Source: Propionibacteriaceae bacterium (lineage in GTDB: Bacteria; Actinomycetota; Actinomycetes; Propionibacteriales; Propionibacteriaceae). Taken from it: a stretch of DNA of 10,160 nt. The translations under genes and the position numbers were made by a program. The stretch lies in contig DAIEHO010000077.1 of assembly GCA_027353565.1 (NCBI GenBank), positions 1-10,160 of the forward strand, given 5' to 3'. The notes under the pieces were generated by a model. The model saw nothing but the letters and a program-made list of their open reading frames with translations, was not told where the DNA came from and did not search any database. Within the stretch, counting starts at the first letter, position 1. Each line of letters begins with the position of its first letter. Of this stretch, positions 6,235-10,160 are shown one piece after another.

Positions 6235-7230
6235 TCAGAAGATCCGGTTGACGACGCTGGCCGGGGCGGCGAGCAGCGCGTCGATCTCGTCGTCCAGCTT
6301 GACCAGGGTGAGGGAGCACCCGGCCATCTCGAGCGACGTGCAGTACTCACCGACGTAGCTGCGGGTGGCTGTGATGCCCTTGGCGGCGAGCTTCTCCGCG
6401 GCGATGCCGTACAGCAGGTAGAGCTCGCTGATCGGTGTCCCGCCGAGGCCGTTGATCATCAGGGCGACCTTGTCCCCCGACGAGAACGGCAGGTCCGGCA
6501 CGACCGCGTCGAGCAGGATGTCGACGATCTCGTTCGCGGACACGACCTTGGCGCGACGGCGACCGGGCTCGCCGTGGATGCCGACGCCGACCTCCATCTC
6601 GTCGTCGCCGAGCTCGAACAGCGGCGAGCCCTTCGCCGGCGGTGTGCACGCCGTCAGCGCGATGCCCATGGTGCGGGTGACCGAGTTGACCAGCTCGCCG
6701 ACCCGTACGACCTCCTCGAGCTCGGCTCCCTCCTCCGCCTTGGCCCCGCAGGCCTTCATCACGAAGAAGTTGCCGGCCACGCCGCGGCGACCGACCGTCC
6801 AGGTGGAGTCCTTGACGGCGACGTCGTCGTCGATGAACAGCGTCGTCACCTTGAGGCCATCGGCCTCTGCCAGCTCCTGTGCCATCTCGAACGCCATCCG
6901 GTCACCCGTGTAGTTGTTGACCAGCAGCAGGACGCCCTTGTCGGAGGCCACGAGCTTGGCCGTCTGGTACACGTAGTCCGACGGCGGCGCCGCGAAGACG
7001 TCGCCGGGGCAGGCCGCGTCGAGCATGCCTGGCCCGACCACCATGACGTGGGCCGGCTCGTGACCGGAGCCCGACCCCTGGACGATGCTGACCTTGTTGT
7101 TGTTGGGGGCGTCGGCTCGCATGATGAGGTTGTACTCCGGCACGTACTTGATGGTGTCCGGGTTGGCCGCCGCGATGCCCTTGAGCATCTCCGGTACGAA
7201 CTGCTTCGGGTCGTTGACGAACTTCTTCAT
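6235..7230 (-). CDS. dhaK: Dihydroxyacetone kinase subunit DhaK (or related ketose-kinase subunit)
   Basis: The substrate-binding half of a dihydroxyacetone-type kinase, which holds the ketose covalently while DhaL delivers phosphate. At 331 residues it is slightly shorter than E. coli DhaK (356). The key residues match the E. coli protein one position on: H57 in GSGHEPAH, D110 in NYTGD, and the hemiaminal-forming H219 in GVGIHGEPG. IDDDVAVKDS and YCTSLEMAGCSLTLVKLDD are also conserved. The usual GGGSGHEP loop reads GSGSGHEP, and the stretch after it (HVMVVGPGMLDAACPG) differs from classical DhaK. Related kinases act on erythrulose or apulose, so dihydroxyacetone is likely but not certain. 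It is last in the operon, 51 bp after dhaL, with its own AAGGAG 7 nt before the ATG. No dhaM is present. Confidence 0.93.
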   Translation of the reverse strand: MKKFVNDPKQFVPEMLKGIAAANPDTIKYVPEYNLIMRADAPNNNKVSIVQGSGSGHEPAHVMVVGPGMLDAACPGDVFAAPPSDYVYQTAKLVASDKGVLLLVNNYTGDRMAFEMAQELAEADGLKVTTLFIDDDVAVKDSTWTVGRRGVAGNFFVMKACGAKAEEGAELEEVVRVGELVNSVTRTMGIALTACTPPAKGSPLFELGDDEMEVGVGIHGEPGRRRAKVVSANEIVDILLDAVVPDLPFSSGDKVALMINGLGGTPISELYLLYGIAAEKLAAKGITATRSYVGEYCTSLEMAGCSLTLVKLDDEIDALLAAPASVVNRIF

Positions 7231-7281
7231 TGACGTTCTCCTTGCTTGTCGGTTGGCGTATCGGTCAGGAACTGTCGGTTG

Positions 7282-7914
7282 TCACTCGGGCCAGTCGTCG
7301 GCCAGCTTCTCGAGGAGCACGGCGATGGCCATCGCGCCGGCGTCGACCGACCCGATGCTCCGTTCTCCCGTGTACGAGGCTCGGCCGCGTCGGGCCTGCA
7401 TGGTCTTCGTGTTCTCGGCGGCTTCCCGTGCGGTCGTCGCCATCGCCCGTACGATCTCGGCCGGGGGTCTGCCCGCAGCCGACTCGGCCCCGAGGGTGTC
7501 GATGGCCGGCACGAGCGAGTCCATGAGCGTCTTCTCGCCCAGCTCCGCCTTGCCTCGGGCCTTGATGCCCTCGACGGATGCCCGCAGGGCGCGGACGACG
7601 TCCTCCGCGGTGAACTCGTCCTTGCCCCGGAGCTGGGTGCCGGCCCGCAGCATCGCCGTACCCCAGATCGGGCCGGACGTCCCGCCGATGCGGGCCGACA
7701 CGCCTCCGGCGATCTTGATGAGGAACGTGCCGGGGTCGGACCGGTCGATGTTGGCCCAGTCCTCCTGCACGATCTCGAATCCACGTGCCAGCGAGTAGCC
7801 GAAGTCGCCATCTCCCACGACGGCGTCCAGCTCGCCGAAGTACGTCTCGTTGTCGAGGATGGTCTGCGTGACGTTCGCCATGACGAACTCGACGTCCTTG
7901 AGGGTTCCCGTCAT
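7282..7914 (-). CDS. dhaL: Dihydroxyacetone kinase subunit DhaL (nucleotide-binding)
   Basis: The nucleotide-binding subunit that passes phosphate to the ketose held on DhaK. Its 210 residues match E. coli DhaL (210). The Mg-binding aspartates D30, D35 and D37 are present in LDAVVGDGDFG at the same positions as in E. coli; the next residue, normally His (GDADHG/GDGDHG), is F38 here. Other family blocks are intact: GGTSGPIWGTAML, ARGKAELGEKTLMDSLVPA and the C-terminal RRGRASYTGERSIGSVDAGA. In PTS-type kinases DhaL keeps a bound ADP that DhaM rephosphorylates; with no dhaM in the window an ATP-exchanging DhaKL is an alternative. The ribosome site AGGAG overlaps the stop of the preceding phosphatase gene (TAGGAG, 9-nt gap), a sign of translational coupling. 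Confidence 0.93.
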   Translation of the reverse strand: MTGTLKDVEFVMANVTQTILDNETYFGELDAVVGDGDFGYSLARGFEIVQEDWANIDRSDPGTFLIKIAGGVSARIGGTSGPIWGTAMLRAGTQLRGKDEFTAEDVVRALRASVEGIKARGKAELGEKTLMDSLVPAIDTLGAESAAGRPPAEIVRAMATTAREAAENTKTMQARRGRASYTGERSIGSVDAGAMAIAVLLEKLADDWPE

Positions 7915-7923
7915 GTGTTTCTC

Positions 7924-8697
7924 CTAGTGGTGAATGAGATGTGCGATGTCGGACAGAGAGACGTAACCGGGCTCGGCGAATGTCGGCGGTTTGCGCAGCG
8001 GCCCCCCGGCGAACGGGCGTCCCGGGTCCCCGAGGCTCGGCAGGACTACGGTCGCCCGGGAGAAGTCGTCGTCGGCGGTGTAGCTGCTGACGGTCACGAG
8101 CACGGTCAGGCCTGCACCGACGGCCGCCTCGACGCCGATCCCGCTGTCCTCGACGACGACGCACTCGCTCGGCTCGAGCCCGAGGTCGTCGAGAACCTTC
8201 AGGTAGATGTCGGGCGCGGGCTTCTTGTGGGCGACGATGTCGCCGGCGAAGACATGGCACTGCTCGTACGAGTCGTCGCCCGCGGCGTGCCGGAGCACTG
8301 CCCGTACCGACGGCTCGGCAGAGGTCGATGCGACGGCCACGGTCCAGCCGGCGTCCAGCGCCTCGGCGATGATGCGATGGATGCCGGGGCGCCCCGGCAG
8401 GAGGCCCGCCTCGACGCGCTCCGTGAAGAGCTCGGTCTTGCGAGCATGGAGTCGCTTGATGAGCGCCCCCTGCTCCTCGGCGTCCGCGCCGACTCCGGCA
8501 TCCGCCGCGACCTCCGGGGTGAACACGCTGGCGATCCGCTCCTTGCCGCCGCCGATGCGGAGCTTCTGCGCGTACGTGGCGTCGTCCCAGGAGATAGGGA
8601 GCCCGAACTCGGCGAACGTGAGGTTGAACGCGGGCAGGTGCCCGTCGCGCTCGGTGTCGGCGAGCACGCCGTCGCAGTCGAAGATCAAGGCCGGCAT
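7924..8697 (-). CDS. CbbY-like HAD phosphatase (candidate xylulose-1,5-bisphosphate phosphatase)
   Basis: A 257-residue HAD-superfamily sugar phosphatase. Motif I is FDCDGVL with nucleophile D7 and acid/base D9; motif II is AVASTS (121-126); motif III is K158/K159 in AHKKPAPDIY; motif IV is VVEDSGIGVEAA with E183/D184. The cap carries IGGGKERI (48-55), a hallmark of CbbY, and SSYTADDDF near the C-terminus closely resembles the plant chloroplast CbbY. CbbY enzymes hydrolyse xylulose 1,5-bisphosphate, a Rubisco inhibitor, to xylulose 5-phosphate. No Rubisco is visible here, so the role is more likely catabolic and tied to the adjacent aldolase and kinase. It begins 3 nt after the aldolase stop (TGAGCGATG), with GGAAGG inside the aldolase end. 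Other phosphosugars remain possible. Confidence 0.85.
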   Translation of the reverse strand: MPALIFDCDGVLADTERDGHLPAFNLTFAEFGLPISWDDATYAQKLRIGGGKERIASVFTPEVAADAGVGADAEEQGALIKRLHARKTELFTERVEAGLLPGRPGIHRIIAEALDAGWTVAVASTSAEPSVRAVLRHAAGDDSYEQCHVFAGDIVAHKKPAPDIYLKVLDDLGLEPSECVVVEDSGIGVEAAVGAGLTVLVTVSSYTADDDFSRATVVLPSLGDPGRPFAGGPLRKPPTFAEPGYVSLSDIAHLIHH

Positions 8698-8700
8698 CGC

Positions 8701-9558
8701 TCAGGCCTTCCCCGCGCTGCCGAAGATGGTGATGTACGAGATCGTCATCTCCCGGATGGCCTTGCCCACAGGGGCGAACAGGCTCGGCGGGTCCCACTTG
8801 CCTGCGGCCTCGGCGGTCTTGAGGTAGGCGAGGCTGGACTGCATGAACGTCTCCTTGAGCGCCGTCGAGATGTTGACCTTGGCGCAACCCCGGGAGATGC
8901 AGTCCTGGAACTGCTCGTCGGTCAGTCCGCTGCCGCCGTGGAGGGCGATCGGCACGGGATGCGCGGCGACGAGGTCGCTGACGCGCTGGAAGTCGAGGAC
9001 GGGGGCCCGCTTGTACGTGCCGTGGGCGTTCCCGATCGCCGGCGCGAAGCAGTCCACTCCGGTCGCCTCCAGGTAGGCGAGGCTGATCTCGAGCGACTGC
9101 CGGTGCGACTCGGCGTCGCTGCCGATGCCGTCCTCCTGCCCGGTGATCGACTCGATCTCGCCTTCGACGTCCGCACCGTAGCGGCGCGCCTCGGCGACGA
9201 CCTCGATGGTCTGGCGCTGGTTCTCCGCGACCGGGAGCGTCGAGGCGTCGAAAAGCACGGAGTTCCACCCCTCGGCGAGGCAGGTGGAGATCACCTCACG
9301 GTCGGGGCAGTGGTCCAGATGCAGGGCGACGGGCACTTCGATGCCGGCCGTCATCGCCTTCCACATCGCGTACAGGACGGGTGCTGTGATCGACCTCACC
9401 GTCTTCACCGACGTCTGCAGGATGATCGGCGACCTCGCCTCGACCGCGCCCGCGAGGACGCTCTCCATCGAGAGGTCGTTGACGATGTTGATCGCGGGCA
9501 CCCCGTACCTCGCCTCGAACGCGGGCTTGAGGATGTCCCTGAGGGGCATGACAGCCAT
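8701..9558 (-). CDS. Class II (zinc) fructose-bisphosphate / ketose-bisphosphate aldolase
   Basis: A zinc-dependent aldolase that reversibly joins DHAP to an aldehyde or aldehyde phosphate. Its 285 residues match the FbaA/GatY/KbaY group. Visible blocks are LHLDHCPD (79-86; D82 proton donor, H83 zinc ligand), VEGEIESITGQEDG (131-144), AIGNAHGTYK with zinc ligand H179, LHGGSGL with H207, KVNISTALK, and the C-terminal FGSAGKA. The loop usually read as D-x-SH-LP is here FDASTLP (103-109), with Thr in place of His, so the substrate may not be fructose 1,6-bisphosphate. It is first in a four-gene operon with a phosphatase and dhaLK, which points to DHAP as product or substrate. The start has GAGGAG 4 nt upstream; M4 is a less likely alternative. 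Family sure, substrate open, hence no symbol. Confidence 0.9.
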   Translation of the reverse strand: MAVMPLRDILKPAFEARYGVPAINIVNDLSMESVLAGAVEARSPIILQTSVKTVRSITAPVLYAMWKAMTAGIEVPVALHLDHCPDREVISTCLAEGWNSVLFDASTLPVAENQRQTIEVVAEARRYGADVEGEIESITGQEDGIGSDAESHRQSLEISLAYLEATGVDCFAPAIGNAHGTYKRAPVLDFQRVSDLVAAHPVPIALHGGSGLTDEQFQDCISRGCAKVNISTALKETFMQSSLAYLKTAEAAGKWDPPSLFAPVGKAIREMTISYITIFGSAGKA

Positions 9559-9622: not shown

Positions 9623-9628
9623 ACACTA
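9623..9628 (-). promoter_or_regulatory. Candidate -10 of the aldolase-cbbY-dhaLK operon (TAGTGT)
   Basis: TAGTGT on the minus strand fits TANNNT and would start transcription near 9616, giving a leader of about 58 nt that contains the inverted repeat 9584-9613. The bases 17 nt upstream do not resemble a -35, as expected for an activator-dependent promoter. Positional evidence only. Confidence 0.35.
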
Positions 9629-9649
9629 GGGAGGCAGGTCGACGACGGC

Positions 9650-9695
9650 CATGGGGGATTCCCCGCACGGGTGTGTGCGGGCCGGCATGGGGGAT
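9650..9695. repeat. Two 10-bp direct repeats CATGGGGGAT upstream of the aldolase operon
   Basis: Identical copies lie at 9650-9659 and 9686-9695, 36 bp apart. They sit between the regulator gene end and the candidate operon -10, at about -35 to -45 and -70 to -80 relative to the predicted start. That is a normal place for activator sites. A hairpin (9662-9681) lies between them. The binding protein is unknown; the adjacent LuxR-type regulator is an obvious candidate. Confidence 0.45.
9662..9681 (-). terminator. Candidate terminator hairpin of the LuxR-type regulator gene
   Basis: CCCGCAC (9662-9668) and GTGCGGG (9675-9681) form a 7-bp perfect GC-rich stem with a 6-nt loop, 30 nt beyond the regulator stop. 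There is no U-tract. If it works, the operon downstream depends on its own promoter. Confidence 0.38.
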
Positions 9696-9710: not shown

Positions 9711-10160
9711 CTAGAAGCGGAGCGCGACGAGCTCGGTCCGACTGCGGACGTTCTCCTTGCGGAGCACCGCTCCGACGTGCTTCTCGACGGTCTTCACGGA
9801 GATGCCGAGACGGGTCGCGATCTGCTTGTCGGCGAGGCCCTGCTCGAGCAGCATCCGCACCTCGCTCTCACGCTGAGTGAGCGACGTGCCGGTCGGTGTG
9901 AGGCTCAGCTGCTCGAGGAGACCCCCGAAGACCAGCACCTCGCCGCGGGCGGCCGCGAGCACGGCGCGTCCGAGGGACGTGGCATCGACGTCACGGGGTA
10001 CGAGTCCGCGCACACCGTCCGCCGCCCACGCTCTCACTTCGGCCTCGGCGCCCGGGTCGTCGACGAGCCCGATCACGGGGACATCCGGGTCGACCTCGCG
10101 CAGCGCGGTCAGGAGACCCCGCTCACCGGGCAGACGGAGGTTGGCGATCACGACGTCCGG
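9711..10160 (-). CDS. NarL/LuxR-type response regulator with degenerate receiver, N-terminus cut by window edge
   Basis: A two-domain DNA-binding regulator; 149 C-terminal codons are present and the frame stays open to the window edge (PDV before the GTG at 10151), so the true start is outside. The C-terminal LuxR helix-turn-helix (9714-9881) is canonical: LTQRESEVRMLLEQGLADKQIATRLGISVKTVEKHV. The receiver part aligns well in shape (PDVVIANLRLPG, PVIGLVDD, GLVPRDVD, AVLAAARGE), but the phospho-acceptor Asp is Asn (codon 10140-10142), the switch Thr is Val (10062-10064) and the conserved Lys is Arg (9993-9995). It is therefore unlikely to be switched by normal phosphorylation. It lies 152 bp upstream of the aldolase-dhaLK operon in the same direction and may control it. 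A partner histidine kinase, if any, would be off the window. Confidence 0.88.
   Translation of the reverse strand, partial: PDVVIANLRLPGERGLLTALREVDPDVPVIGLVDDPGAEAEVRAWAADGVRGLVPRDVDATSLGRAVLAAARGEVLVFGGLLEQLSLTPTGTSLTQRESEVRMLLEQGLADKQIATRLGISVKTVEKHVGAVLRKENVRSRTELVALRF

Follow-up and report, generated by a model that had tools for sequence, protein, structure and literature searches.

We have analyzed a 10,160-nucleotide stretch of DNA from a Propionibacteriaceae bacterium (contig DAIEHO010000077.1, hereafter the window) that carries four intact open reading frames (ORFs) on the minus strand, from position 9558 down to 6235. The first one codes for a class II (metal) aldolase of the dihydroxyacetone phosphate (DHAP) group (8701-9558; PF01116, E 1.5e-76), for which we propose xylulose 1,5-bisphosphate (XuBP) as the product. 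It is followed by a CbbY-type phosphatase of the haloacid dehalogenase (HAD) type (7924-8697), assigned from its solved relatives, shared alignment columns and a tree and proposed to act as a XuBP 1-phosphatase, and by the two subunits of a kinase: a DhaL-type nucleotide subunit (7282-7914; PF02734; TIGR02365, 181 bits with a cut-off of 138) and a DhaK-type substrate subunit (6235-7230; PF02733; TIGR02363, 423 bits with a cut-off of 406), proposed to phosphorylate glycolaldehyde (or dihydroxyacetone, DHA). The genes are separated by 3, 9 and 51 bases, and GGAG-type ribosome sites precede those of the aldolase, DhaL and DhaK. The tight four-gene operon described in an earlier note on this DNA is therefore real and intact. 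The source assembly is 69.5% complete (1.76 Mb in 377 contigs) and its nearest named relatives are Propionibacteriaceae metagenome-assembled genomes (MAGs).

The operon is not a chance grouping. We scanned named genomes with an aldolase alignment, keeping the best 80 of 130 relatives, and found the CbbY gene adjoining the aldolase in all 80 loci, with DhaL and then DhaK in order in 73 of them. Among the seven exceptions, three loci stop after DhaL (L053, L062 and L074), one has only a DhaK-type match before the locus end (L123), and three carry a divergent kinase in DhaK-DhaL order (L096, L100 and L111). As this set had been picked via the aldolase, we added a scan led by the phosphatase, which covered 394 genomes of the class with no more than six candidates taken for scoring in each (threshold E 1e-45). 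It gave 14 matches including that of the window, and the other 13 all have the four genes. The earlier note had made its proposal depend on the conservation of the four genes together, and this is what relatives have. A phylum-wide scan with the aldolase alignment gave matches in 7 of 396 genomes, two of them already known (the window genome and G191). Four of the five further genomes have kinase genes too, the divergent kinase in the case of G584, which is apparently the same assembly as that of L111; in G643 (locus L207) aldolase and CbbY are found together, and a DhaK-type gene lies only some 5 kb off. Closer to the window, in a scan of 57 genomes (its own and those of relatives), the module appeared in the window genome, G001-G004, G006, G013, G042 and G056, the aldolase of G003 being truncated at a contig end, and no close phosphatase match was found in G005, a member of the same genus that is 98% complete. 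The module is uncommon but widespread, being found in a minority of actinobacteria that includes Propionibacteriaceae, Micrococcaceae, Microbacteriaceae, Streptomycetaceae, Pseudonocardiaceae, Micromonosporaceae and more distant members of the phylum.

The aldolase has the features of the class II DHAP aldolase superfamily: the fold, a His triad that we take to bind zinc and an Asp that is presumably catalytic. AlphaFold2 gives it the barrel of a class II aldolase (pLDDT 91), and the best matches in a fold comparison were class II aldolases, the identity to the solved relatives listed there being 24-35%. Of the 20 NCBIfam models that the protein matched, none had its cut-off reached, including the curated ones for fructose-bisphosphate aldolase (FBA) and tagatose-bisphosphate (TBP) aldolase (220.6 for a cut-off of 343 in TIGR01859, 195.1 for 443.6 in TIGR01858 and 209.2 for 215.6 in TIGR00167). 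A class IIa FBA is separately present in 52 of the 53 operon-bearing genomes (hereafter carriers), the exception being the incomplete window genome. Two motifs, Q48-T-S50-V51-K52-T53 and N229-I-S231-T, set the protein apart. The first is an acceptor-side motif of its own, with a Lys52, unlike those of class IIb FBA and TBP aldolase, and the second reads NIST where the aligned relatives have NVAT, NVNT or NVDT. Gln48, Ser50, Lys52 and Thr53 were invariant over 105 loci (some genes counted twice), including clusters with other kinases, and residue 51 was Val in 101. The equivalent of residue 51 has been reported as crucial for the binding of fructose 1,6-bisphosphate (FBP) in the FBAs of B. methanolicus, the gluconeogenic enzyme having Val (PMC8119897). 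Lys52 lies directly after barrel strand 2 in the model. In five aligned solved relatives this position is Gly in four and Lys in SqiA alone, the latter named in the fold comparison as a class II sulfofructose-phosphate aldolase. We reason that the terminal anion is three bonds away from C4 in both sulfofructose 1-phosphate and XuBP, and four in FBP. Since Lys52 is shared with SqiA, and the spacing between anion and C4 is the same, this residue may be the sign of a short anionic acceptor, here glycolaldehyde phosphate. The aldolase is a subfamily of its own, and we propose that it would form XuBP from DHAP and glycolaldehyde phosphate.

The shared Lys52 could also be taken to indicate sulfoglycolysis, the aldolase being then an SqiA-like class II sulfofructose-phosphate aldolase. 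In the fold comparison the SqiA structures take ranks 3-5, on a par with ordinary FBAs, and phosphofructokinase (PFK), another enzyme that would fit, is coded near the operon in 9 of 82 loci. We consider this extremely improbable. According to a 2026 review, class II sulfofructose-phosphate aldolases belong to Firmicutes and Proteobacteria, with class I enzymes in Actinobacteria (PMC12890257), and the sulfo-Embden-Meyerhof-Parnas clusters reported in Arthrobacter carry a YihT homologue (PMC8873060). Besides, no sulfoquinovose gene was recognised in the 45 neighbour clusters most shared over the 82 loci, which were read by eye, with families named from one member each and no search with family models. 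CbbY and DhaKL would have no evident role in such a pathway.

The closest solved relative of the phosphatase is the Arabidopsis CbbY (4uav, E 8e-61), then the Rhodobacter CbbY (4uar, 1e-36), and the next one is at 4e-13. As a measure of residue conservation we used the 86 columns identical between these two CbbY proteins. The window phosphatase keeps 66 of them (77%). For 98 operon phosphatases (some genes taken twice) the mean was 77% and the minimum 67%, two partial proteins at locus ends keep 59% and 66%, and twelve generic HADs keep 36-53%. Residues GGKER 50-54, W37, Y42, H84, K87, R103, D153, K158-K159 and E183-D184 had a frequency of 1.00 in the 98 operon phosphatases. In a tree of 53 rows the operon members formed, together with the plant and Rhodobacter CbbY, a clade of 43 with support 95/88; the tree gave long-branch warnings and a non-operon HAD (L017) falls inside the clade. 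By its sequence the phosphatase is of the CbbY type, apart from other HAD-IA phosphatases, and likely hydrolyzes the C1 phosphate of XuBP. Two CbbY enzymes of Arabidopsis are reported to remove one phosphate from XuBP or ribulose 1,5-bisphosphate (RuBP) and none from xylulose 5-phosphate (Xu5P) or ribulose 5-phosphate, with a preference for XuBP of about 1000- and 5000-fold (PMC10212915). The operon enzyme is thus like the CbbY of R. sphaeroides and the CbbYA of Arabidopsis in its sequence family and likely reaction, and unlike them in sitting next to an aldolase and a kinase, in hosts that mostly have no match to RuBisCO.

XuBP is an inhibitor of RuBisCO. A RuBisCO-family match was absent in 45 of the 53 carriers, over the cut-off in seven and weak in one, some of these assemblies being incomplete. 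Among four members of the genus, RuBisCO is present in G001 and G006 and absent from G000 and G002. That of G001 is form II (NCBIfam PRK13475, 880 bits), and in both genomes RuBisCO adjoins a separate phosphatase similar to the Rhodobacter CbbY, the CbbY of the operon being a different copy. Because no match was found in 45 of the 53 carriers, the misfiring of RuBisCO is not the source of XuBP in those, and, with the operon CbbY being a separate copy, the substrate probably comes from the adjacent aldolase. Separately, the RuBisCO clusters of G001 (L040, contig C202, form II) and G006 (L042, contig C210) contain ORFs read by eye as phosphoribulokinase, rpe and transketolase, and autotrophy is possible in these Propionibacteriaceae-type MAGs.

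The kinase subunits have clear family assignments and an altered substrate pocket. In DhaL, the position x of the GD[AG]D-x-G motif was F in 55, L in 21 and H in 3 of the 79 loci read. When aligned to DhaK of E. coli, the operon DhaK retains the carbonyl-binding His, and Lys104 and Gly52 are replaced by Asn105 and Ser53. Over 100 operon kinases (some genes counted twice) the position of Lys104 is Asn in 96 and Leu in 4, and that of Gly52 is Ser in 95. Lys104 was kept in all 17 sequences that lie closer to the DhaK of the DhaKLM system that the window genome also has. Lys104 presumably makes contact with DHA at the hydroxyl end that does not receive the phosphate. Glycolaldehyde, without a second hydroxymethyl group, would fit the operon pocket and seems a likelier substrate than DHA. 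Compared with DhaKLM, the operon has in common the two subunits and the carbonyl-binding His, and differs in these replacements, in its aldolase and phosphatase partners and in the absence of an adjacent dhaM in the window; neither was a dhaM recognised among the 45 most shared neighbour clusters. A DhaM match exists elsewhere in 48 of the 53 carriers (37 over the cut-off), and these probably have a separate DHA kinase. In the window genome, contig C11 (L045) carries a separate canonical dhaK-dhaL-dhaM set. Arthrobacter sp. SF27 (G058) has no DhaM match and a single DhaK/Dak1 match, that of the operon, so that ATP may be the direct phosphate donor of its operon kinase, provided that no genes are missing from the assembly.

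The earlier note had DhaKL making DHAP from DHA, which is doubtful given Asn or Leu at the Lys104 position in all 100 operon kinases and DhaM in most carriers. A pathway built on that step, in which the aldolase would add glycolaldehyde phosphate made elsewhere and CbbY would yield Xu5P, shares the aldolase and phosphatase evidence described above, and it agrees with the scores of DhaK and DhaL over the NCBIfam cut-offs, with the retained His and with the strain SF27, where the only Dak1 match is that of the operon. We think it rather unlikely, since it leaves aside the replacement of the DhaKLM-type Lys104 and Gly52 and the probable presence of a separate DHA kinase, as on contig C11 of the window genome, and it makes the triosephosphate isomerase (TPI) or PFK genes found next to some operons needless as a source of DHAP.

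Our preferred reading, to which we give a probability of roughly 0.48, is that the operon codes for a self-contained line by which a C2 and a C3 compound would enter the pentose phosphate pathway, with glycolaldehyde as the substrate of the kinase. The DhaKL-type kinase would convert a small carbonyl, most likely glycolaldehyde, into glycolaldehyde phosphate. The class II aldolase would join it to DHAP drawn from glycolysis giving XuBP, and the CbbY-type phosphatase would take the C1 phosphate off, with Xu5P as the product and the whole sequence made irreversible. The purpose would be the assimilation or the detoxification of glycolaldehyde, and a regulator with a GAF sensor and a LuxR domain would control the operon. 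We infer the substrates, products and directions, as well as the signal of the regulator, from the sequences. The formation of Xu5P through XuBP put forward by the earlier note gains from the CbbY family, the separate aldolase subfamily and the carriers with no RuBisCO match, and the doubtful part is its DHA-kinase step. More tentatively, the same enzymes may be a natural form of glycolaldehyde assimilation, in which a re-tuned DhaKL and the XuBP aldolase and phosphatase would turn glycolaldehyde, DHAP and ATP into Xu5P, and which would be closed into a carbon-conserving C2 cycle by neighbours (transketolase, RpiB, TPI or transaldolase, adjacent in a few genomes).

Several observations weigh against glycolaldehyde as the substrate of a dedicated XuBP route. 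Similarity to CbbY is no proof of specificity for XuBP; R21, common to the Arabidopsis and Rhodobacter CbbY, appears in only 2% of the operon phosphatases and some other shared residues are also lost. The loss of Lys104 is not unique to the operon either, because six of eight fused kinases from other contexts have Gly at that position (of the other two, one has Lys and one was unread by the pattern; the Leu row of that comparison, L189, is by its contig the operon kinase of L096), and it should therefore be taken as an altered pocket and not as pointing to one substrate. The earlier note had suggested a comparison of gene neighbourhoods, and in this comparison no glycolaldehyde-producing gene is consistently linked to the operon. 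Neighbours beyond the core vary, which is why we consider the operon a stand-alone module. Finally, the aldolase/CbbY pair occurs without adjacent DhaKL in G021, G022, G029 and G643, and an additional CbbY-type gene of G029 (59%) lies without such an aldolase alongside. The pair is tight but can do without DhaKL, and the phosphatase is also found by itself, so another substrate is possible.

A few loci provide neighbours of metabolic interest. The Cryobacterium plasmid pA10BH1 carries the aldolase (42% identical), CbbY, dhaL and dhaK, followed by a MIP-family channel, an HbpS/GlcG-like protein, TPI (on the opposite strand), RpiB and a split transketolase, the module being bounded by a Tn3-family transposase and a GntR regulator. 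In G555 a gene of the transaldolase family (weak, 33 bits for a cut-off of 27) shares four bases with the start of the aldolase gene, and DhaK is followed by an HbpS-like gene. Such neighbours, able to supply DHAP or to use Xu5P, agree with the proposed product, in few loci only. HbpS/GlcG-like genes (PF03928) were seen near the operon in 19 of the 82 loci and in two more, for example at 14487-14906 of L046, 10781-11200 of L206 and 13235-13654 of L210; their role is possibly related to aldehydes or haem.

The gene content of pA10BH1, with DhaKL, aldolase, phosphatase, transketolase, TPI and RpiB, also matches the logic of a DHA-recycling branch of formaldehyde metabolism. The xylulose monophosphate (XuMP) cycle of methylotrophs has the same sequence of DHA kinase, aldolase, phosphatase and transketolase; in the operon the aldolase and phosphatase would act on FBP or sedoheptulose 1,7-bisphosphate and regenerate the substrates of transketolase. 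An iron alcohol dehydrogenase in the Cryobacterium locus L106 and a formaldehyde dehydrogenase in L112, both assigned by eye, would fit as well. As regards the dihydroxyacetone synthase of that cycle, what was seen is the split transketolase of pA10BH1 and an ORF of L111 that looks by eye like a transketolase. Unlike in the XuMP cycle, the phosphatase of the operon is of the CbbY type and not a fructose bisphosphatase, and in the 45 most shared neighbour clusters we recognised, by eye, no gene of methanol or formaldehyde metabolism. Together with the canonical FBA in 52 of the 53 carriers, the residue changes in DhaK and the strong preference for XuBP over RuBP reported for the Arabidopsis CbbY pair (PMC10212915), this makes such a branch improbable.

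The operon could also work in the catabolic direction, DhaKL phosphorylating a ketose (erythrulose or a pentulose), the aldolase cleaving the product and CbbY repairing XuBP formed as a side-product. There is a kinase with a role of this kind, LerK of M. smegmatis, which is reportedly kin to DhaK. A divergent DhaK-type kinase occurs in four loci, L123 and three in which it is fused: L096 and L100, both of Cryobacterium, where it is a single protein of 576 residues, and L111, of Nitriliruptoraceae, where one open frame spans both parts. In addition, a TIM-like protein that does not reach the TIGR00419 cut-off is coded in a RuBisCO-like-protein cluster (L039). The L-erythrulose 1-kinase LerK is described as acting in the breakdown of tetritols (PMC10733421). 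We regard catabolism as quite improbable: neither a transporter nor an isomerase was seen by eye in the 45 most shared neighbour clusters, short-chain dehydrogenases/reductases reached at most 4 of 82 loci per cluster, and a phosphatase co-transcribed with the aldolase would point to synthesis. On pA10BH1, TPI passes the TIGR00419 cut-off but not those of the longer PRK00042 models, and RpiB passes two general cut-offs of its family but neither those of the narrower RpiB models nor that of the erythrulose-phosphate model DerI; these scores disfavour both as erythrulose-phosphate isomerases. As for the surroundings of the fused kinases, PFK is found near L096, L100 and L111, L096 has fused E1 and E2 genes, and L111 has an ORF read by eye as transketolase.

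If glycolaldehyde is indeed joined to DHAP in this way, XuBP would be a genuine pathway intermediate, and both XuBP and the CbbY-type phosphatases would gain a role beyond the repair of RuBisCO, which would suggest how such phosphatases can occur in organisms that lack it. The operon would represent a natural, carbon-conserving joining of C2 and C3 units into a pentose phosphate, a step of the kind designed in a study of synthetic photorespiration (PMC6298115). The version reported there as demonstrated uses FsaA and glyceraldehyde 3-phosphate to make arabinose 5-phosphate; in both schemes a C2 aldehyde would be joined by aldol addition to a sugar phosphate and the end is a pentose phosphate, the difference being that the operon is found in natural genomes and would proceed via DHAP, XuBP and a phosphatase. 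The kinase, aldolase and phosphatase could serve as parts for bioproduction from C1 and C2 compounds, and the adjacent labels 'DhaK', 'DhaL', 'class II fructose-bisphosphate aldolase' and 'HAD hydrolase' in actinobacterial genomes may mean one specific pathway. Like the earlier note, which knew of no description of the operon, we found none of the operon or the route in the open-licence literature by title and abstract start, weak evidence of absence as this is.

Upstream of the aldolase, on the same strand, the window ends within a hybrid regulator gene (9711-10160; PF00196), of which the C-terminal 149 amino acids remain, the rest being truncated by the contig end. A full-length relative in the same genus (L043) has the architecture GAF - HisKA_3 - HATPase_c - receiver - LuxR. 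In 36 of the 80 loci a match to the regulator end lies on the same strand less than 1 kb upstream, and in 50 there is one anywhere in the locus, where some may be unrelated NarL-type regulators. Between the regulator and the aldolase an alignment of 11 loci of the same family revealed a conserved block (9623-9693, minus strand), likely the promoter/operator, with shared CCCCCAT blocks, a CCC[CG]CA-TG[CG]GGG palindrome and CTAGnGT. In the window these are CCCCCAT at 9693-9687, CCCGCA-N8-TGCGGG at 9681-9662, CCCCCAT at 9657-9651 and CTAGTGT at 9629-9623. The combination CCCCAT-N15-22-CTA[GC]nGT was found upstream of 22 of the 80 aldolases vs. 0.0 in mononucleotide shuffles, and the palindrome in 10 of the 80 loci vs. 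0.1, the loci being related and these counts not independent. An inverted repeat of the window, CGTCAC/GTGACG, was dropped, as it was upstream of 0 of the 80 aldolases. A sigma-70 promoter scan of the window gave no site, a tRNA scan gave none, and terminator-like sites were two vs. 0.9 expected. On the 3' side of DhaK there is a UTP-glucose-1-phosphate uridylyltransferase gene on the opposite strand; this gene and the flanking galactokinase and LysR genes recur, among the 80 loci, in those of the same genus only.

The clusters where the pair appears with other partners have a content of their own. L036, L037 and L039 (of G021, G022 and G029, with aldolases of 42-47% identity) and L207 (of G643) combine the same Lys52 aldolase subfamily and CbbY, and may represent an undescribed pathway that shares XuBP. 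In L037 and L039 there is a MtnW-like RuBisCO-like protein that stays under the cut-offs of the models it matched, plus a TIM-like match. L039 holds in addition a GlpK-like kinase, a Fe-ADH_2 dehydrogenase and, as judged by eye, ORFs for fused E1 and E2, and L207 has the pair together with a TIM-like match and Fe-ADH_2. The CbbY-like gene of G029 that lacks the operon aldolase (L038, contig C2, 636000-654000) is surrounded by genes that we read by eye as a RhaD-like aldolase/dehydrogenase, a four-carbon acid sugar kinase and a DeoR-type regulator.

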